64,000 nucleotides of DNA from Haliotis asinina (lineage: Eukaryota > Mollusca > Gastropoda > Lepetellida > Haliotidae), in contig NC_090288.1 in NCBI RefSeq assembly GCF_037392515.1, forward strand, positions 60,807,673-60,871,672, in the 5' to 3' direction. Positions 9,831-45,760 of the stretch are shown here, piece after piece. Within the stretch, counting starts at the first letter, position 1; each line of letters opens with the position of its first letter. Below the pieces are notes generated by a model, which had not been told where the DNA came from, did not search any database, and saw nothing but the letters and a program-made list of their open reading frames with translations. The translations under genes were made by a program, and so were the position numbers.

Positions 9831-9979
9831 GTAACTTCCAAAAATGCCACCTTACTTGGGCGTTTAAGGTACACCATTTGCTATCGTGGATCCAGTCCCA
9901 CAGATCTATAATACTCAATATGAAATCAGTTGTCAAATGTTATAGAGGTGTTGTTGAATAGTGATTGATCTGTTCTAGG

Positions 9980-11047
9980 ATGGCTAGCATGATCCGGTTG
10001 AAGAGGCTCAGAAGTATGTCATGGCCGTGCATGTTGACCCTGCTGTGTATTGTGACTACTGGGGTCAGTTTGCTGAGCAGAGAGTTCGTTACTGTTGCCA
10101 AGGACGATAGGGCAGTGGCGATCACGACAAGCACAACAAAGACTGGAAACGCATCGAGGCAAATAACCATTCCACCAACCACTCCAAAGACGATCAATAA
10201 ACACAAGGCAGATATTATGAGAGCTTCTAAAAGAGTTCGCGCGGTGTCTGACCCCATGCTGCGATATCTCAGCATCACACACAGTAAAGAGGATGTTTGG
10301 GATAATTTACATTTGTACAAATTCTCTATGAACGCCGACAACTGTAAGGGTAGGGCCCCCGTAGTGGTAATAGTGCATAGTGCCATGTATAACACACACA
10401 AACGAGAAAGAATTAGGAAAGACATAAGGGGCAGTGACTCAAAGCGCGAACCATTATTGACTGTTGTTTTTCTAGTCGGGGAAACGACCAACGCATCATT
10501 ACAGGCAAAAGTTAAAAGGGAATCGCAAAAGTATCAAGACATTGTACAAGGGAATTTCATAGATTCTTACCACAACCTGACCCACAAGCACATCATGGGT
10601 TACCACTGGGTTATCAATCATTGTAAAACTGTACGCTATGTTATCAAAATTGACGATGATGTCGTTGTCCACGTTGACAACGTCTTAAGGTACCTGTTGT
10701 TGAACCCTCTCCCTGAAGAGCATATTATGTGCGTCGTTCTGCCGATGACCGTGAAAAGTACACGCGGAAAGTGGGCCATTTCTGATCAGGAATACCCTTT
10801 TATCAGGTACCCTCGATATTGTGCTGGATTTGCATATATAACAACGCTGTCAGTTGTCAAGAGACTACACGCTGCTTCAACTTACATCAGGTCAATATGG
10901 GTTGATGACACTTATGCTACCGGCCTTCTTGCACTTGCATCCAACACCAAACTGATAAGTTTTCCCAATGGACAATACTATAACGGGTTGCAGAAGCCAC
11001 CCGCACGATATAAAACAGAAGGGATGTTTATATTGTACCGTGATTAA
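9980..11047 (+). CDS. Beta-1,3-galactosyltransferase-like protein, GT31 family (tandem copy 1)
   Basis: Encodes 355 residues in one coding exon. Residues about 12-32 form a hydrophobic signal anchor after a basic stretch (RLKRLR), as expected for a type II Golgi enzyme. A Thr/Lys-rich stem follows. The catalytic region shows GT31 landmarks: VVVIVHSAMYN..KR..IRKDI, a VVFLVGET strand, DIVQGNFIDSYHNLTHKH, the metal-binding KIDDDVVV (DDD at 225-227), a YP.Y.CAGFAY segment and a DDTYATG motif (309-312) where the family usually has EDV..G. By family, it should move galactose or a related sugar from UDP-sugar to a glycan in beta-1,3 linkage. The acceptor cannot be told. The start chosen is the ATG after TGTTCTAG, which could be a 3' splice site joining an upstream non-coding exon; a second ATG lies three codons on. 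NxS/T sites occur at NAS and NLT. Copy 2 is 4.2 kb downstream. Confidence 0.93.
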   Translation: MASMIRLKRLRSMSWPCMLTLLCIVTTGVSLLSREFVTVAKDDRAVAITTSTTKTGNASRQITIPPTTPKTINKHKADIMRASKRVRAVSDPMLRYLSITHSKEDVWDNLHLYKFSMNADNCKGRAPVVVIVHSAMYNTHKRERIRKDIRGSDSKREPLLTVVFLVGETTNASLQAKVKRESQKYQDIVQGNFIDSYHNLTHKHIMGYHWVINHCKTVRYVIKIDDDVVVHVDNVLRYLLLNPLPEEHIMCVVLPMTVKSTRGKWAISDQEYPFIRYPRYCAGFAYITTLSVVKRLHAASTYIRSIWVDDTYATGLLALASNTKLISFPNGQYYNGLQKPPARYKTEGMFILYRD

Positions 11048-13736: not shown

Positions 13737-15975
13737 TACAGTTCAGTTTATGAGTTATGTCAATGATGAGCTTGCAGGAAATGGCCAAGTGCCGAGGAAT
13801 ACCCTCATATGTATTATGATTTGTGTTTTGATAAACGGTGATTACTAACTTGATCAAACTGGCAGTGACTTATTTCAATGCCATTTTTGAAGTTGGAAGT
13901 CAGATCGAACAAGTATATAAGCTCTAACTTTTTATAGCTCTAGAACAGACGTTTCATGCAGGTTCTTGCATCGTTTTCAAGTATGAATATTCAAACTCAC
14001 CTTAACATCCACATTCACTATTGCGTTATTTCCGCTGACTATCCACAGAAATGCATCTTTATATGGACTTGAAAGCTACACCAATTACTGTCAGTAACTC
14101 CAGTTCCAAAGAACTATAGCACTGTATATGAAATCAGTTGTCGAATGTTACAGAGATGTTGTTGAATATTGATTGATCTGTTCTAGGATGGCTAGCATGA
14201 TCCGGTTGAGAAGGCTCAGAAGTATGTCATGGCGGTGCATGTTGACCCTGCTGTGTATTATGACTGCTCTGGTCAGTTTGCTGAGCAGAGAGTTCGTTAC
14301 TGTTGCCAAGGACGATAGGGCAGTGGCGATCACGACAAGTACAACAAAGACTGGTAAACCATCGAGGCAAATAACCGACCCGCCAACCACCCCAAAGACG
14401 ATCAATAAACACAAGGCAGATATTACGAGAGCTTCGAAAAGAGTCCACGCGGTGTCTGACGCCATGCTGAAATTTCTCCACATTACACATAATAAAGGGG
14501 ATGTTTGGGATAATTTACATTTGTACAAATTCTCTATGAACGCCGACAACTGTAAGGGTAGGGCCTCCGTAGTGGTAATAGTGCATAGTGCCATGTATAA
14601 CACACACAAACGAGACAAAATTAGGAAAGACATAAGGGGCAGTGACTCAAAGCGCGAACCATTATTGACTGTTGTTTTTCTAGTCGGGGAAACGACCAAC
14701 GCATCATTACAGGCAAAAGTTAAAAGGGAATCGCAAAAGTATCAAGACATTGTACAAGGGAATTTCATAGATTCTTACCACAACCTGACCCACAAGCACA
14801 TCATGGGTTACCACTGGGTTATCAATCATTGTAAAACTGTACGCTATGTTATCAAAATTGACGATGATGTCGTTGTCCACGTTGACAACGTCTTAAGGTA
14901 CCTGTTGTTGAACCCTCTTCCTGAAGAGCATATTATGTGCGTCGTTCTGCAGGGTAGCATGAAGAGAACAACCGGAAAGTGGGCCATTTCTGATCAGGAA
15001 TACCCTTTTATCAGGTACCCTCGATATTGTGCTGGATTTGCATACATGACAACGCTGTCAGTTGTCAAGAGACTGTACGCTGCTTCATCTTACACCAAGT
15101 CAATATGGATTGATGATACTTATGCTACCGGCCTTCTTGCACTTGTAACCAACACCAAACTGATACGTTTTCCCAATGGACAATACTATAACGGGGTGCA
15201 GAAGCCACCCGCACGATATAAAACAGAAGGGATGTTTATATTGTACCGTGATTAAGTACGTGATTTGAAGCATAAGATGAACGCGATGTGGATGTCCAAA
15301 CTATAGATACAGCTGCCGCTATCCCAAGGAGAGTTATTGTCCAAGTGGCTATATAACAGAGTCATATATATATATCACTTTTGCTCAGCAACCATTGTTT
15401 CTGTAGAACGTCGTCAGTTATTGAATGATTGAAGTGACGTCTATGAAGAGGGCATTAACATTTGCTCACCGTGTTTTACTGCACAAACGTTTTTGAACGA
15501 AATGGATAATAAATATATTGTTGCACACACCTATGCGTAACTTGTGCTAGCGGGTGTATTGCCGTCGATCTCGTTCGGGGATAAAACATTTCACACTCGT
15601 TTCGCATCAATCGTATGACACGCATGTTCGTGTAATAATCTCTACGTAGGGAACTGTGGCGTGTTGGTGGTGCTGCTTGCATAAGGTGGGTTACAATTAT
15701 ACATTGCGGGTAATTCTGCTAGTGTAATGGGAATTAATATTATGTACACAAGTCGGCATGCCTGTCTACAGGCTATCTTGCTGGTATAATGGGAATTATG
15801 TACACAAGGAGGAATGCCTGCCTACCGGTGACCCTGCTACTATATATTCAGGTATGTATAGGGCCTGGGGTGGTCGATCTCTGGAAAATGTTACTGGACA
15901 ATGGGGCTGCCTTGTGCAGATAACAGGACTTGTCAATCTCGTACACAAAGTCATTTCTGATTAAACATGTTTTTC
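13737..15975 (+). repeat. Segmental duplication, copy 2 (partner 9262-11345)
   Basis: Matches copy 1 upstream of, through and downstream of the galactosyltransferase gene. The 3' part near 15668-15960 holds the same words as 11155-11330, separated by an extra internal stretch. This stretch repeats 'ctatcttgctggtataatgggaattatgtacacaag' in two overlapping forms (15720-15810). Confidence 0.75.
14188..15255 (+). CDS. Beta-1,3-galactosyltransferase-like protein, GT31 family (tandem copy 2)
   Basis: Encodes 355 residues and is collinear with copy 1: N-terminal signal anchor, Thr/Lys-rich stem, and a GT31 domain with KIDDDVVV (DDD at 225-227) and DDTYATG. Differences from copy 1 cluster in the N-terminal 105 residues and in the last third. 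The block from about WDNLHLYKF to HIMCVVL is almost identical, which suggests gene conversion. The NAS site of the stem in copy 1 is KPS here, so that glycosylation site is lost. The start is the ATG after the same TGTTCTAG as in copy 1. Both copies have intact reading frames and look functional. The role is as for copy 1: a UDP-sugar-dependent glycosyltransferase of the Golgi, with unknown acceptor. Confidence 0.93.
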   Translation: MASMIRLRRLRSMSWRCMLTLLCIMTALVSLLSREFVTVAKDDRAVAITTSTTKTGKPSRQITDPPTTPKTINKHKADITRASKRVHAVSDAMLKFLHITHNKGDVWDNLHLYKFSMNADNCKGRASVVVIVHSAMYNTHKRDKIRKDIRGSDSKREPLLTVVFLVGETTNASLQAKVKRESQKYQDIVQGNFIDSYHNLTHKHIMGYHWVINHCKTVRYVIKIDDDVVVHVDNVLRYLLLNPLPEEHIMCVVLQGSMKRTTGKWAISDQEYPFIRYPRYCAGFAYMTTLSVVKRLYAASSYTKSIWIDDTYATGLLALVTNTKLIRFPNGQYYNGVQKPPARYKTEGMFILYRD

Positions 15976-31020: not shown

Positions 31021-34000
31021 GTTAGGGACGTTCATCAGTCTCTAAGCAAATCGTGTGAGTTACTGAAATCTGATTTTGGCAACTTTATATGTATAAAATT
31101 CAGTAAGTTGATATTTGCAACTGATAAAGATACTATCCTGATATGTGCATAGATCCCACCAGCGGGTTCATCGTACTATAAGACTCACGCAAGATATAGC
31201 CTCGATAATGTAGATCAGCTTTTAGTATCTAATTTGTCTGAGTTTAGAGATTCCCATGTTGTACTGTGTGGCGACATGAACGCGCGTACTGGGGAGAGTA
31301 ACAAGCCCCAAGTGACGTGGTGATGATAGAAACGTCACTAACATACTTGAGGAGGAGGAGGATATCCCTGGTGGGGATCGTAAATCACATGATAAAGTCA
31401 TAAATAGATTCGGACAAATTTTGCTGGACATGTGTTATGCATTTCAGTTATTTATTGTCAATGGTAGAGTGTTTGGAGATGAACAGGGTGAATATACTTT
31501 TGTCAATGGTAGAGTATTCGGAGATGAACAAGGTGAATATACTTTTGTCAATAGTTGCGTGTTTGGAGATGAACAGGGTGAATATACTTTTGTCATTGGT
31601 GGAGTGTTTGGAGATGAACAGGGTGAATATACTTTTGTCAATAGTTGCGTGTTTGGAGATGAACAGGGTGAATATGCTTTTGTCAATGGTAGAGTGTTTG
31701 GAGATGAACAAGGTGAATATACTTTTGTCATTGGTAGAGTGTTTGGAGATGAAGATGGTGAATATACTTTTGTCAATGGTAGAGTATTCGGAGATGAACA
31801 GGGTGAATATACTTTTGTCAATGGTAGAGTATTCGGAGATGAACAAGGTGAATATACTTTTGTCAATAGTTGCGTGTTTGGAGATGAACAGGGTGAATAT
31901 ACTTTTGTCATTGGTAGAGTCTTTGGAGATGAACAGGGTGAATATACTTTTGTCAATGGTAGCGTGTTTGGAGATGAACAAGGTGAATATACTTTTGTCA
32001 ATGGTGGAGTGTTTGGAGATGAACAAGGTGAATATACTTTTGTCAATAGTTGCGTGTTTGGAGATGAACAGGGTGAATATGCTTTTGTCAATGGTAGCAT
32101 GTTTGGAGATGAACAGGGTGAATATACTTTTGTCATTGGTAGAGTCTTTGGAGATGAAGAGGGTGAATATACTTTTGTCAGAGGTAGCATGTTTGGAGAT
32201 GAAGAGGATGAATATACTTTTGTCAATGGTAGAGTGTTTGGAGATGAACAAGGTGAACATACTTTTGTCAATGGTTGCGTGTTTGGAGATGAACAGGGTG
32301 AATATGCTTTTGTCAATGGTAGCGTGTTTGGAGATGAACAGGGTGAATATACTTTTGTCAATGGTAGAGTGTTCGGAGATGAACAAGGTGAATATACTTT
32401 TGTCAATAGTTGCGTGTTTGGAGATGAACAGGGTGAATATGCTTTTGTCAATGGTAGAGTGTTTGGAGATGAACAGGGTGAATATACTTTTGTCATTGGT
32501 AGAGTGTTTGGAGATGAACAAGGTGAATATACTTTTGTCAATGGTAGAGTGTTCGGAGATGAACAGGGTGAATATACTTTTGTCAATGGTAGAGTGTTTG
32601 GAGATGAACAAGGTGAATATACTTTTGTCAATGGTAGAGTGTTCGGAGATGAAGAGGGTGAATATACTTTTGTCAGTGGTAGAGTGTTTGGAGATGAACA
32701 GGGTGAATATACGTTTGTCCATGGTAGAGTGTTTGGAGATGAACAGGGTGTATATACTTTTGTCCATGGTAGAGCGTTTGGAGATGAACAGGGTGAATAT
32801 ACTTTTGTCAGTGGTAGAGTGTTTGGAGATGAACAAGGTGAATATACTTTTGTCGGACAGCATGACTGAAGTGTTAATGATTATTTCCTCTGTTCTAGTG
32901 ATCTCTTTGAATATATAAGTATGTTCAATATAGGTGACCTATTAAGTTCCGATCATGTGCCTTTAGAGCTCAAATGCCAATTTCCTAATAGGAAACAAAT
33001 TAAAGGTAAATCAACATCGGTGACGTCCACTAATGAAAAATTATGTGGAATGAGTCCTTATGTAAGACATTTTTAGAACATCTTCAAGAGATGACCACAG
33101 CTTGTTTTCAATCGGTGTTTGATAAACTTGACAGTAATATAGAACATGCTATTGATGATTTTGTAAGTATGGTTTTAGATTCTGCGAGCTGTATGAAGAC
33201 ACGTGTATCGTTCGCACCGTCGAGAAACATTCCACCCTTAAATACTGAGTGTAAGGTCGCACGGCGGGTTGCACGAAAATCTTTAAAGACGTTTAGACGT
33301 AAACGTACTGATACCAATAGAAAATTATATTGTAAAGAACGAAATACATACAGAAACTGCTGTAGAAGACTTAAATCGGACCAGAGTAAACGAAATGTCG
33401 ATAAATTAACAAAGGCAACAAATAACCGACTTCATTTTGGAAACAGATCAGATATTTAAAAAGTCGACCATCACGAAAGAATGTAATTCCGAAAGCGGAA
33501 TGGCTAAACCATTTTAAAAATGTATTTCATTATGATTTTGTTATAATGATTCTTTTGATGATTGTCCTTTGCAGGAGAGTGTAACACCAGATATCTTAAC
33601 TGCTGATATGTCACACGTCGAATGACTTCCATTGGACTCACCCATAACAGTTAATGAAATATCAGAAGCGTTATTGCATTTGAAAAATGGAAAATCAGCT
33701 GGTCTTGACCTCGTTGTGGCGGAAATGCTTAAATGTTCAGAGTGTGTTATCATGCCCTTTTTGAATAAGTGTTTTAATAAATTGTTTGAGAATGGGATTT
33801 TTCCCCTTTGTTGGGCGCGATCAGCCATTGTACCCTTACATAAGAAAGATGATGTCACCAATCCAGATAATTATAGAGGAATTTCCCTGAGTATTTTAGG
33901 TAAAGTCTTTACATCTGTTCTAAATAACAGGCTGACCAAATGGTGATATGACAGATAAAATTCCCCAATCACAAACAGGCTTTGGGAAGAATTATTCAGC

Positions 34001-39674: not shown

Positions 39675-40260
39675 ATGGACTCCGCGCACGTCTCTTCATT
39701 ACGCAGCAGGTATGGGTGGGACCGACATCGACGATACGTTGATTCCAGCTTCACAGTGTTTTTGACAGTAAGTGATGAAGATGAAATTCTATGTACAGCA
39801 CTGGAAACTGAGGAGGAAAAGGATCTTCTTCAGCAACATTACAGCGCTGTTAGTGACGTATAGGAAGTCCACGTGAGTGAGGATGTATTTGGCGGCGCTC
39901 CGTAGTGGGAAGCATAGTGATCATGAAAGATTTTCTGTACCGTTGTTGGATTCTGAAATTGCAGGATTACTCGAGGCAAGTGTGCCTCAAAATACCAAGC
40001 AGAATTTACGTTGGGCCTGTGGTCTATTTGAAACTTGGAGATATTCACGTAATCAGAGAATTTTACGAGGGGAAACATCCTGACATCGTTTAATAGCTAA
40101 CAAACTCGATGATCTGAACCACGATGAACTTAATTACTCTGTGTCGTTTTGTATGCGAGGTGCGCAAAAGCGATGGATCTGAATATAATCCAAACACTCT
40201 CCGGCAGGTAGTAGAGACCGCACCGGAAATACAATCACGCCGCCTGGTGGTATGCTTACA
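39675..40260 (+). mobile_element. Crypton-like tyrosine recombinase fragment (N-terminal part)
   Basis: Broken frames read VPQNTKQNLRWACGLFETW, LIANKLDDLNHDELNYS and CRFVCEVRKSDGSEYNPNTL. This order (nTk..l..F..W, L..L..F..EvRk.DG..Y.p.TL) is the N-terminal helical part shared by Crypton transposases and their domesticated kin (QRICH1/ZMYM/KIAA1958 type, DUF3504 neighbourhood). The catalytic C-terminal part with Arg..Tyr is not visible and several frame changes occur. I take it as a decayed DNA transposon piece. An acidic stretch before it (SDEDEILCTALETEEEKDLL) may belong to the same element. Confidence 0.6.
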
Positions 40261-40550
40261 TAGAAACGGGTTTTGGTTTGCAGAATGGGTTCACTGTTAC
40301 GTGTTCATTCACAATTATAACGCTATGGTAAAAAGCATTCTTCAACACGTGAAGGTAGAAAACGCCTTCAATTCCGGTTTGGTGCCCACTGAAACCAGTT
40401 GCAGTTGATAATTTGCCGCGTTTTTGCATTTGGACAGAGAGACACCAAGGTGAGTAGACCCTCATAAACGTACATGCTTAAATGTAATCTTTGTCTTCAT
40501 ATACATTTGATGGCAAACGCAACTTGAATGTATAGACAAACGAGTAAAAC

Positions 40551-40712
40551 GGTCCAGGGCCCCGTTTCACAAAGCTCTCGTAAGCCTGAGATCTCGTAAC
40601 TTTTCTCGTAGCATTCGTACCTCCTATACTGTAACATAGGAAGTAGGAATGCTACGAGAAAAGTTACGAGACCTTAGGCTTACGAGAGTTTTGTGAAAGG
40701 GGCCCCAGGACC
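40551..40712. mobile_element. Palindromic MITE
   Basis: About 160 bp made of two arms of some 75 bp. The left arm starts 'ggtccagggccccgtttcac' and the right arm ends 'gtgaaaggggccccaggacc'. The arms pair along 'aaagctctcgtaagcctgag' and 'ctcgtaacttttctcgtagc' with few mismatches. The GGGGCCCC-plus-TTTCACAA terminus is typical of foldback MITEs in marine invertebrates. No clear target duplication is seen. Confidence 0.85.
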
Positions 40713-41044
40713 ACATGTGACGTGTGAGAGAGACGCTGTAACACAATAAACAAAAGTTGAGCACGCAGCCATCGTGGCCAAGATGGCCGACATGTTTATC
40801 TTAGATACATGTACATGTTAATTGTAATGTGTTATAGAGCAAAGCTTTATATTTCGCAGGTAGTCGTCCGTGAAACGTCAACCAGCAGATATGCAGAAAT
40901 CAATGCAGAGGAGTTTGAACTAATTTGAGGTATTTCGACTCACCTATATTCATTCAGATTATACTGAAAATGCATCTCGACAGTGACATTGTATAAATCT
41001 CTAAATCTTTGTCATGATATGAAAATGCAATTGAACTCTGCAGA

Positions 41045-44000
41045 ATGGCTCGACAAGGAAAATTTCTTTTGGGAAATCTAAAATCCATGTTTAGAGACAT
41101 GCCTGTTACAGAAATACACAATGTTGTCCATGCACAGAAGTTATATGATTTCATGGAACGTGTTCAACCAACTGTTATAAATGAAGCAGAAAAGATAATC
41201 ATTCAGGACTTGGAGGAATGTGGGAGTGTGTCGTATCATATATTCAAAGTGTTTGTCCGCAACATGAAATCCGAATGTACATGTATTTGAAGATGGCAAT
41301 TGCAAATAAGTTCACTTTTATTAATGACCACTACCACATGAGAGTTCTGAAAGAATTGGCTTGGTTTGCCCTAGACATGCAACAAAACACAGACGCTGAC
41401 TGGCTGTTGTATTTTTAGATTGTGTGGTTCATCTGTTTTATACTAATGCTCCTGTGACTGTATTGTGACATTTCATGATGGGTTATAAATATGCCTTTGC
41501 TCATGAGTTTGGCATCATACCCACTGATGTTCCCAAAACTGTCCTTCCAAGGGGGAAGTGTATTACTAATGGGCTTGTACTGGATTTGTACTCTGAGAAC
41601 TGAAAACCCAGATATAACACCTGAAGTAGTGTGTAGATTTTTGCACATTCACAGTAGCTACAAAGATCACTTATCAGCAAGAGTTAGTAAACTTGACAGA
41701 GAAAGATGAAACGTGGTAAGTATCTATAGATACTGTTGAACACCACATTTGAACTGCCCTATGAATGATGCAGAAAACAGCATCAGACAGTGATAACTGA
41801 ACTACAAACTAGCACTGAAATACAGAAGCAAGAACTTCATCAGTTGAAAGGTGAACGAAAACATCTGAAACGCAAAGTCTTCCAGCTCATAGAGAGCCGT
41901 GAAGCAAAGGGGTAGAAAGTATCAGAACTGAAGGAGAAAGTCAACAGGTGTACAAAAAAACTTGAAAAAGAACTGATTAAATGTCAAGTTGACAAGGCAA
42001 AGGAAACAAGTTCACTAAAGTTTTCTCAGTCCAATTTGGGAGCAGAGGTAGCTCAACTAAGCAGACATATATCTTGTATTGAAACCACAAATGCTAGTCT
42101 TGAGTCACAGATTGTAACTTTGAAGATGGAGAGGACAACTTTGGAACTTGAAATGAGGCAAAAATCTGACCAAATATCATACTTATTGAAGAGGAATGAA
42201 GAGTTGGAATCAAATTGTCGATATCTTGAGCAGTCTGTTGGAGATCTGCAAAGTGATCATCTTAAACTGTATGATACAGACACCAGAATGTTCAAACCTG
42301 AAACAGAACTCTGTGTATATAAGTTACTTGATTATAAGGTGGCATTTGATAACGTGGGTGGAGTTATTAAATCTGTGGCATCGTTACGCGGAAAAACAAA
42401 CATTGATCGATTGCCAAAAGAGTCTACTGTGAGGAATTGTCACAAATGCAGGCAGCTGAAGTATTGCCAGCAGCAGAAACGATGACTCTATACACTGATG
42501 AAACTGCAAAGCGTGGAGACACGTTTGGTGGATATCATGTCAGTGATGAAGAAGGAAATATGTGGGTTCTGGGACACAGAAATATGGCAAACAAGTCAAG
42601 AAAAAAACAGCACTAGATACCTTCAAAATGGTGCTGTCGGATATCGATAGGAGCTTGGAATCAGCAAAGGAATCAGAAGCTGACCATCAACCCACTGGAC
42701 ATCAAATTCTCTCAAAGATCAGATGCACAATGTCTGATCAAGCTGCAACAGAGAAGCACTTTAATGATTTGTTGACTCAGTACATATCTGAAATACTTCC
42801 TGAAGTCACAGCTAGCTGGCAGGACTTGACTGTGGATCAGAAGGGTGCTTGTGCCAAAATGTACAATTTCTTTTGTGGACTACACCTACTTGTAAATTTA
42901 GCAGAGCTGACCAACACTACCCTGAAGAAATTTGAGTCCAGTTTGGACTTTGCTACTTTGCCTGAAACCACAATGTTTACATACAAAGAAGTCTGAAGCT
43001 GGAACAGTTCCGTGTGAGGACGGCATGCAAAGCATTCACAAGAGGAGGGGACGAGAAAAATGGAGCTTACAGGGCATTTGCAGACTATATTGACGATCAA
43101 AGGGATGAGATCCTCCGATTTGCCCTCTTTCGTGGGAATAGTTTGTTGATGGAGGCCTAGTCTACTACTACTACTACTCCAAAGATATTACAGAATTCAT
43201 AGGAGATGTTCATGGTGAATCTAACACACTCTTGACAGCAGTTCATGCTGACTCCAAAGTTCCAGCATTCCGTGCGGGCACAAAGGTTTTAGGTCTGATA
43301 GAGAAGCAGGTGACATCCCAATTGTGGAGAGTGATTGAAGACAAGGGACATCTTCTCGACATAAATCAGCATTATTTTCGTCTTCTAACATTTCTCAGAG
43401 AGGCATCAATTGATAGCTCGGCATTCCTAGCTGGGAAGCAAGTACCTTTTCCAGATCACGTGAAACATGACCGAGTCCTTGAATATCTACTAGCGGAGTC
43501 TGATGTTCATACCATTTGTCAGCGGATGTTACAGTTCCTGTTCTCATCATGGATAACATGTATTGAGAAGGCTGTGAAGGATCATTTACCAGGAGGTGAC
43601 CATGAGAAAGTCAATGCAGTGATGAGAACTCTCACTCTCAAGCACAAGTTTCCCGAAAGTATATTTGGATTACTCGATCACCTACTCACTGTGCGGCCAA
43701 ATGCAACTACTCTCTGCAATGAGGCATACATCATGTTTTTCAAAAATAAAACATTTCAATGGATTGACAGCAAGCCAAACCATGAGCGCAATGAGTTGTC
43801 AAAGAAGTGTCACACACTGATAAGGGAGATCAAAAAGGAGTTCAAGCTTCGCTGTGAGGACATCATGGAATCAAGAAAAAAGCTCAGAAAGAGAAGAAAT
43901 TGCAACTACTGAGCAAAAAAACCAAAAGGAACTTCCCGAAAAGGAGAAACTGACTAGTGACATTATCTATTATGGTCTCTGGCAGTCCGAGGAGGAAATC

Positions 44001-44564
44001 CGTGTAAACGTACGTGACCTTATGGCGTCCCAGACAAAACAAGAATGCAGGAAAGCCCTTTGTGCTCACCTGAACTTCAGAAAAAATGTCCTGAACCAGA
44101 AACATCATGATAGAGCTATCGTCAACATCACCCGAAGAAATAATGTACCATTGACAATACTTGATCTTGAGAAGAACCTTGGGGAACTTGTGCGTGCTTC
44201 ACTTATGTCGCCAAACATTGCTGAGAGACATGTAGCTGGACATCCCTTGTTAGTAGGCAAGACTGTTAAGCACACTTTCAAAGACAGTGATGAATGTGAC
44301 ACCTACACTGATTATATTGGCTATGTCATCAATACTGTTCCTTGGCATCCAACCTGGTATAACATCAAGTATGAACATGACTGTGCAGTCTACACATACC
44401 ATTTGCAGGATAATTATGCTGATGGTTCCTTGAAAATCCATGTTGGTAAGATGCTTGAGGCATGGAGTTACCTGATATGGAATGATTACAAGGACAGTGG
44501 TGAACGTTCATTGCCACAGGACAGTGGCGGCATGTGGCCAGGATGGCATATACTTATGAACTAA
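41045..44564 (+). mobile_element. Decayed multi-domain element: coiled coil, possible DDE core, spindlin-like C-terminus
   Basis: A series of plus-strand frames in several phases forms one collinear protein-like text. In order: an N-terminal region (41045-41710); a long coiled coil (about 41790-42260); YKLLDYKVAFDNVGGVI; LYTDETAKRGDTFGGYHV (about 42490); CTMSDQAATEKHFNDLL (about 42733); NFFCGLHLLVNLAE (about 42870); VRTACKAFTRGGDEKNGAY; KAVKDHLPGGDHEKVNAV; NEAYIMFFKNKTFQW (about 43720); and a C-terminal segment with VGKTVKHTFKD, WYNIKYEHD and VYTYHLQDNY (about 44250-44440). TDE, SDQ, C-G-L-H and a late Glu resemble a DDE transposase with the C(2)H signature. The C-terminal segment resembles one spindlin/Ssty repeat. 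I recall multi-copy proteins of this type in marine invertebrates, without a family name. At least five breaks make it inactive. No terminal repeats were found. Confidence 0.6.
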
Positions 44565-44700
44565 TGGTTTCAGGCAGGACCTGGAAGCACATTGCCAGGA
44601 TGGCATATTGTTTTGGAACTAACGGTTTCAGGCAGAAACCTTGATGCATATGGCCAGGATGGCATGTATTTGTTTTAACTAATGGTTTCAAGCAGAAACT
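44530..44700. repeat. Three tandem copies of a 55-60-bp unit
   Basis: The words 'ggccaggatggcata' and 'aactaatggtttcaggcaga' recur three times, starting at the 3' end of the element's last open frame. The first copy overlaps its final codons (MWPGWHI). Confidence 0.8.
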
Positions 44701-44719
44701 TGGCATGTTGTTATGATCA

Positions 44720-45760
44720 GAAACAGGTTGCATGCAGCGATCATTAATGTTGTGTTGTTATGACACCATTGCGAAGCAATCGGTTGAGACAATATACATA
44801 ACTTAATGTCATAGTGATGCCCACCATGGTTTTATATACACACCATACAGTTTAACATAGCTGCAGCTATAGGGACTGAATTAAACAGCCTCTGAGTCAG
44901 CTGCATCACAGTAATGTCTACAGTAATTTTAGGGCAGTTGTGAAAAGTTTTACTAACAGATTACAGTTCCCTCATTTTTCAGCCCCTCCCTCCTCAGTTC
45001 AATCCCCATTACCTGGCTAATACTAAAATCACTCACTCATTTGTTTGTTTTCTGATCATTCAATCATTGCGACTACACAATGTTAAAGAGCTGAAACGTT
45101 TATTGTTTTTATTGTTGGTAAACATTCACTTCCAGAGGTCTGTAACAAGACAATAAATGAGTACTTATTTAGGAAAGATCTATGTACGGAGAATCTGAAC
45201 AGGGCCAGGGTATTCAGATTTCATGTTCAGTTTAGTTATCATGATTATGTATGCTATTGGGGCAATTTGCATTTTTCAATTCTTCATGCTGCTCTGTCAC
45301 GACTATGTCAGTAATTCAATGTATTTTACATCATGGTCTAATTTATATATCGAAAGAAATAGAATGTTTCTGTATTTTAGTTGTGATTTAACAAACCTCA
45401 AATGCGATCATTTTTTGTCATAAACTAAGCCATCCTGAGTTATCTCCCTTTCTGACCGTTCACGAAGTATTGTGTCACGTTTTGCGTCTTATTCTGGAGA
45501 ATGCTGAACGTTGTTGTTTAAAGATGAGCTTATTTGAAAGATCTTGAGGGTAAAAAAATTGTCAAACGGTGTACGGGTGTACGGCGCCTCAGGAAATAAG
45601 GATTTACAAGTCTTACGGTCTCGTACACTCTTTCAAAACACAGTGTATCCAATAGTGTCTAACTAAATACCTTAAAAAATTGGTATCTGTGTATGTGCTT
45701 TACGGTAGTTGAAGTGTCATGATATATTTGTAACGTCAGGTTATGACATGCACCACCTTT
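44720..45760. other. Gene-free stretch
   Basis: No supported feature. Confidence 0.4.

Follow-up and report, generated by a model that had tools for sequence, protein, structure and literature searches.

The window is a stretch of 64,000 nucleotides of Haliotis asinina DNA (C9:60807673-60871672) from a genome of 1.14 Gb in 159 contigs. Two similar frames of 360 aa lie on the same strand at 9965-11047 and 14173-15255 and match the galactosyltransferase model PF01762 (1.5e-36 and 1.3e-37, respectively). A tandem repeat with 31 copies of a 45-bp unit occupies 31455-32854, where several frames are open on both strands. The feature analysed in this report is an element remnant on the plus strand, assigned to group A, whose homologous unit runs from 40210 to at least 45272. 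A dispersed repeat (45345-45665), for which 40 of 311 genome candidates were scored, lies just to the right of it.

Structure of the remnant in the window

The unit 40210..45272 is common to the copies at C9:42.03M and C13:33.68M, and the flanks differ among the copies. Its left edge in the window reads TAGAGACCGCACCGG (TAGAGACC... from 40210), and homology to the window reaches its left limit at 40209 in the C9 copy and at 40210 in the C13 copy. The right limits, at 45272 (C9 copy) and 45231 (C13 copy), are limits of homology and not proven termini. A sequence-only reading of the same DNA had placed the feature at 41045-44564; this range was retained as that of the coding remnant and was too short for the whole unit, since homology among the copies spans 40210-45272. 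A foldback insertion (40551..40712, without assigned strand), formed by 77-nt arms that are 90% complementary and separated by an 8-nt loop, lies inside the element. The C13:33.68M copy lacks the foldback and runs on across 40567/40705 with a 14-nt overlap, and the C9 copy has approximately 257 nt of other sequence at this position.

The transposase-like coding remnant (41045..44564, plus strand) is made up of nine open stretches, counted at a minimum of 50 aa, with seven changes of frame, and the gene in the window is therefore broken. Positions of the motifs were counted in bases from the translations of the open frames. A coiled-coil-like segment (41916..42485) forms a 189-aa open frame, and its comparison with Pfam returned 16 families, mostly coiled-coil, all below the cut-off. 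It is followed by the first acidic residue, the D of LYTDE (42497..42499), the second, the D of TMSDQA (42736..42738), a C(2)H motif, CGLH within FCGLH (42874..42885), located 46 residues past the second D, the third acidic residue, the E of NEAYIM (43721..43723), and a Spin/Ssty (Tudor-like) C-terminal domain (44253..44405). LYTDE, TMSDQA, C-G-L-H, NEAYIM and the spindlin-like tail, which had been picked out beforehand from the letters, were thus all recovered, in collinear order on the plus strand. Chance is not considered to account for the remnant, because it has DNA matches at six other loci, its motifs align in diverged copies, and the match of its tail is significant.

Neither an inverted repeat nor a target duplication was established for the window copy, and its right end was not found. 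A candidate approach to the right end of group A, based on repeated left-flank 8-mers, was rejected: it gave many 7/8 matches, as expected by chance, and two isolated 8/8 matches (in the window and the C9 copy) that occurred in shifted registers only and did not define a common end.

Dispersed copies and their ends

Searches of the animal's own genome were performed with DNA and protein queries. The DNA search returned 17 matching stretches, located in the window and at six further sites in the genome, and the protein searches returned 22 and 18. Copies are spread over 15 contigs, so that the multi-copy family proposed earlier is confirmed as a dispersed one. Scans with six short peptide patterns each yielded no relatives in viral contigs or prokaryote genomes.

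The copies were sorted into groups, for which the letters A to J are labels of this analysis. Group A includes the window and the copies at C9:42.03M, C13:33.68M, C13:32.6M and C14:12.76M, plus fragments. Group B consists of the C6:28.10M and C11:18.13M copies, which share 94% identity over 5.4 kb, and the C9:57.9M and C1:60.35M copies are B-like. Group C (38 stretches from 18 candidates) includes C2:30.20M, C4:80.25M, C7:9.88M, C11:45.73M and more, and groups D to J hold several diverged copies. A group B query matched group C at 2.5e-24 in its second half and 8.6e-11 in its first, and the two groups are homologous over most of the protein. None of the copies read carries the whole protein in one frame. 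The dN/dS values within groups A, B and C (0.46-0.77) and against the B-like C9:57.9M copy (0.44-0.86) mix decay and constraint; comparison with the E and F copies gave a dN of 0.60-0.66 with saturated dS. Both group B copies (L059 and L060) share the same in-frame stop, which may mark two proteins, between an open frame of 151 or 150 aa and the next frame. A reverse-transcriptase RNase H domain (PF17917, 2.5e-24) is located at 6313-6915 of L060, beside the C11 group B copy.

The ends of the element were read in group C. The left end was the same base at the first three loci read; when it served as a query, 9 of 15 rows began at its first base, two of these being one locus, and with the right end as query the last or last-but-one base was reached in 11 of 19 rows. 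Outside these ends the sequence varies between loci. The ends are approximately 9.2 kb apart in the C4 copy and approximately 11.0 kb apart in the C2 copy, the latter distance including another, nested element. The termini form an 11-bp imperfect inverted repeat, TAGGCTTCCTA/TAGGGATCCTA, in which 9/11 positions match on inspection by eye. Four loci were read at both ends: an exact 8-bp duplication flanks the copy at C4:80.25M (ATTCCAGG) and at C11:36.34M (GATGAAAA), the flanking 8-mers match at 6/8 positions at C11:55.91M, and no duplication in register was found at C2:30.20M. The extreme left end is lost at the C10, C15 and C5 loci, and at C5 the right end is lost as well. The base following CCCT is A at 6/8 loci and G at 2/8, so at some loci, C4 included, a 7-bp duplication with an additional terminal A is also possible.

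The C4 copy is inserted in a dispersed repeat. A query made by joining its flanks over one ATTCCAGG aligned through the junction with unoccupied repeats in 7 of the 13 rows; in the same search the halves of the C4 copy itself overlapped by exactly 8. In an alignment of four unoccupied sites the junction was whole in three and carried small changes in the fourth. Group C, a subfamily related to the window copy, is a DNA transposon. Defined ends, a terminal inverted repeat (TIR) and target duplications, for which a check had been suggested, were found in part: group C has constant ends, a TIR, 8-bp duplications at two of four loci and empty sites for one insertion, and in groups A and B no right end, TIR or duplication was established. 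The C2:30.20M copy (L070 and L074) holds in its right part a nested, Tc1/mariner-like open frame, recognised by eye, that lies between 37-nt inverted repeats. At C10:57.20M and C11:55.92M the right end of group C occurs twice nearby, and the 80-bp reads look identical.

No inverted repeat or duplication was found at the ends of the group B copies. Their upstream intron-like stretches, judged by eye and located ahead of the coding part in both copies, led to the rejection of a retrocopy origin and make copying at the DNA level more likely, being common to both. An internal deletion common to the C17 and C4:40.76M copies was discarded as proof of mobility, because their flanks are 99.7-99.9% identical and the two are one locus seen twice.

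The same observations bear on the explanation that this is a family of host genes, equipped with a spindlin-like reader, whose copies arose by duplication or as passengers of other elements. The want of a defined right end, inverted repeat and duplication in groups A and B would fit it, as would the intron-like stretches that the two group B copies share and their 94% identity over 5.4 kb. Against it, however, the same gene in the related group C is bounded by constant ends, with target duplications and empty sites, the residues D, D, C(2)H and E are conserved, and copies on 15 contigs include none read in one frame, so that a host gene family is considered very improbable. Assignment to a family of DDE-type DNA transposons is well supported. 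By homology, groups A and B would have moved in the same way as group C.

Conserved residues and relation to named superfamilies

Conservation was assessed in a 19-copy alignment that includes the C6 query and in which copies of the same group are not independent and one row is empty. Among the copies with an aligned residue, the first D is kept in 8/8, the second D in 11/14 and the E in 14/14; within the C(2)H motif the C is kept in 16/16 and the H in 15/16. For the second D, the C and the H, one row of each count comes from a match weaker than 1e-3. The second D of the C6 copy follows the first by 78 residues, and the C follows after 46 more. The DDE and C(2)H signature proposed for the window thus holds across subfamilies. 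Loss of the second D in 3/14 copies would be expected under decay, yet it also counts against a transposase.

Model searches of the core were negative. Pfam scans of the pieces tested, at E up to 1 or, in one scan, up to 5, returned no transposase model, although the HMMER filters hide weak matches, and a profile from the D to the C(2)H motif found nothing related in PDB, just an unrelated match at 0.96. AlphaFold was applied to two single pieces from the window, neither containing the whole core, and gave pLDDT values of 31 and 47; the second piece was predicted, at low confidence, as helical throughout, the position of the E included.

Two superfamilies of the C/DxxH group are the closest in features. 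Elements of the hAT superfamily have short terminal repeats that start with TAG, and their transposases have a long insertion ahead of the E; P transposases have a coiled coil before the core. In the literature hAT is described with C/DxxH between the second D and the E and a target duplication of approximately 8 bp, and the P superfamily is likewise placed in the C/DxxH group with a duplication of approximately 8 bp; the combination is therefore not specific to hAT, being common to P too. The element studied here resembles hAT in its C/DxxH motif, approximately 8-bp duplication, short TAG terminal repeats and long insertion before the E, and differs from it in having a Spin/Ssty tail and no hAT Pfam match, BED finger or hAT dimerisation domain. 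Its likeness to P lies in the C/DxxH motif, the approximately 8-bp duplication and the segment before the core, here coiled-coil-like; unlike P, it matches no THAP or P-type RNase H model and carries the Spin/Ssty tail.

Other superfamilies were compared mainly by their target duplications. Zisupton/KDZ elements produce 8-bp duplications (PMC12730594), in which they agree with the present element, whereas no KDZ model matched in the pieces tested. Dada elements generate duplications of 6-7 bp inside small RNA genes and are without TIR; group C has 8 bp and a TIR, and its sole target examined, that of the C4 copy, is a dispersed repeat and does not fit the Dada pattern. IS3EU elements have TA..TA termini and usually a 6-bp duplication; in group C the duplication is 7-8 bp, not 6, and the termini would read TA..TA if the A found after CCCT at 6/8 loci belongs to the element.

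It is a nearly even possibility that the family does not form a new superfamily but branched off deep within a named one of the C/DxxH group, most likely hAT or P, with the tail as a lineage-specific addition. The C/DxxH motif between the second D and the E, the 8-bp duplication and the short inverted repeats argue for such a placement, and the region before the E, which is predicted to be helical at low confidence, would agree with it. It is opposed by the absence of any hAT, P, KDZ or MULE match in the Pfam scans of the pieces tested, and by the coiled-coil-like segment that stands where a BED or THAP finger would be, none having been recognised.

The Spin/Ssty tail and its possible role

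The identification of the tail was based on Pfam and on solved structures. The window tail matched the Pfam model Spin-Ssty (PF02513) with 42 bits against a cut-off of 25 (8.2e-11), and its best match among solved Spindlin structures was SPINDLIN-3 (5a1h, 1.6e-18), with the strongest stretch in the second repeat. The spindlin-like tail noted earlier in the window is thus a true Spin/Ssty domain. The other eight scanned pieces of the element gave no Pfam matches over the cut-off. Weak results below the cut-off were DUF5520 (0.0015) in the frame of the window tail and a plant Tudor model (1.7e-4) for the C6 tail.

At least 10 Spin/Ssty matches over the cut-off were found in this genome among 27 candidates scored, and none in 14 control genomes. 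Nine of the ten matches listed have homology to the core within the same 3-kb locus, and the tenth (C16:14311229) is on the same strand as a group D copy, approximately 3.1 kb downstream of it. For groups A, B, D, E and F, the position of a Spin/Ssty tail next to the core is well supported. The tail of group C is Tudor-like in pattern and was not called by Pfam, and its alignment to Spin/Ssty is weak (E 0.018). Of the earlier proposal of a transposase with its own chromatin reader, the multi-copy nature, the D, D, C(2)H and E residues, the defined ends (in group C) and the position of the tail beside the core stood up; the core is a putative RNase H fold, and the tail of group C a putative Spin/Ssty domain.

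The residues of the histone-binding cage were examined next to those of Spindlin1, in which F141, W151, Y170 and Y177 of the second repeat hold trimethylated H3K4 (PMC7878818). These numbers were placed on the tail alignment by our own count. The window copy and the copies at C6:28.1M and C1:60.4M have F, Y, Y and Y at the cage positions. Over nine copies, counting one weak row (group C), the F is kept in 9/9, the W is replaced by Y in 8/9, the alignment being doubtful in the ninth, and of the two Y positions that follow the first is conserved in 9/9 and the last in 6/9; the last Y is F, C or S in the remaining three. The domain is single in the window copy, as opposed to the three repeats of Spindlin.

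These data support the interpretation that the remnant in the window is a cut-and-paste DNA transposon, now dead, that encoded a C/DxxH-type DDE transposase with a C-terminal Spin/Ssty chromatin reader, which we regard as quite likely; the enzyme probably carried its own histone-mark-reading tail. The protein would consist of a coiled-coil-like segment, a C/DxxH-type DDE core in which a long and probably helical insertion separates the C(2)H motif from the last E, and the Spin/Ssty Tudor-like domain. We infer an RNase H fold and catalytic activity for the core, which would bind the short terminal repeats, excise the element and join it to the target, resulting in the 8-bp duplication. The tail may read histone methylation and guide insertion: by binding a methylated histone tail it would direct insertion towards marked chromatin or bring the enzyme there. 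Besides the negative model searches of the core, the losses of the second D and the want of a copy with the whole protein in one frame, two observations on the tail count against this interpretation. The groups with a clear tail, A and B, are those without an established right end, TIR and duplication, whereas group C, with proven ends, has a weakly Spin-like tail; and the apparent replacement of the cage W by Y, together with variation of the last cage Y in three of nine copies, would weaken the case for a reader.

The second point leads to another explanation of the tail, as a structural or self-association module and not a chromatin reader for target choice. It would be consistent with the Y in place of the cage W, with one domain against three in Spindlin, and with the strong alteration of the tail in group C and the variability of the last cage Y. 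However, the cage F and the first Y are kept in all nine copies, and the repeat matched best is the second, the one that holds H3K4me3 in Spindlin1; a structural or self-association role is therefore judged somewhat doubtful, and a transposase with a chromatin reader is preferred. The likeness to the Spindlin (SPIN/SSTY) readers is greatest in that repeat, and the differences are the presence of one repeat in place of three and its fusion to a transposase-like core.

Among LTR retrotransposons, integrases with chromatin readers are known (PMC12477816). Gypsy-10_Ec32 of the brown alga Ectocarpus differs from the present element in being an LTR retrotransposon, not a DNA transposon, and in its unrelated host. 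Among the literature matches listed, none described a transposase with a spindlin domain in its title or at the beginning of its abstract. If the interpretation is correct, a transposase joined to a histone-reader tail would be a new combination among DNA elements of this kind. It would point to an independent evolution of histone-mark-based target choice in cut-and-paste elements, and would provide a natural histone-guided insertion enzyme to test.

A further question posed by the finding is whether a mobile element gave rise to the Spindlin family of readers. The idea arises because all ten listed Spin/Ssty matches lie in or beside copies of the family, and because no free-standing spindlin gene was found among the best candidates scored in this genome, although one could have been missed since the best candidates alone were scored. 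A wider proposal, in which the family is a new superfamily of C/DxxH DDE transposons with its own Spin/Ssty reader and vertebrate Spindlins may derive from, or share an origin with, its tail, is considered unlikely at present. At the DNA level, the Spin/Ssty frame of the window copy runs into a 59-bp tandem repeat (44535-44703), which starts within the last codons of the frame.
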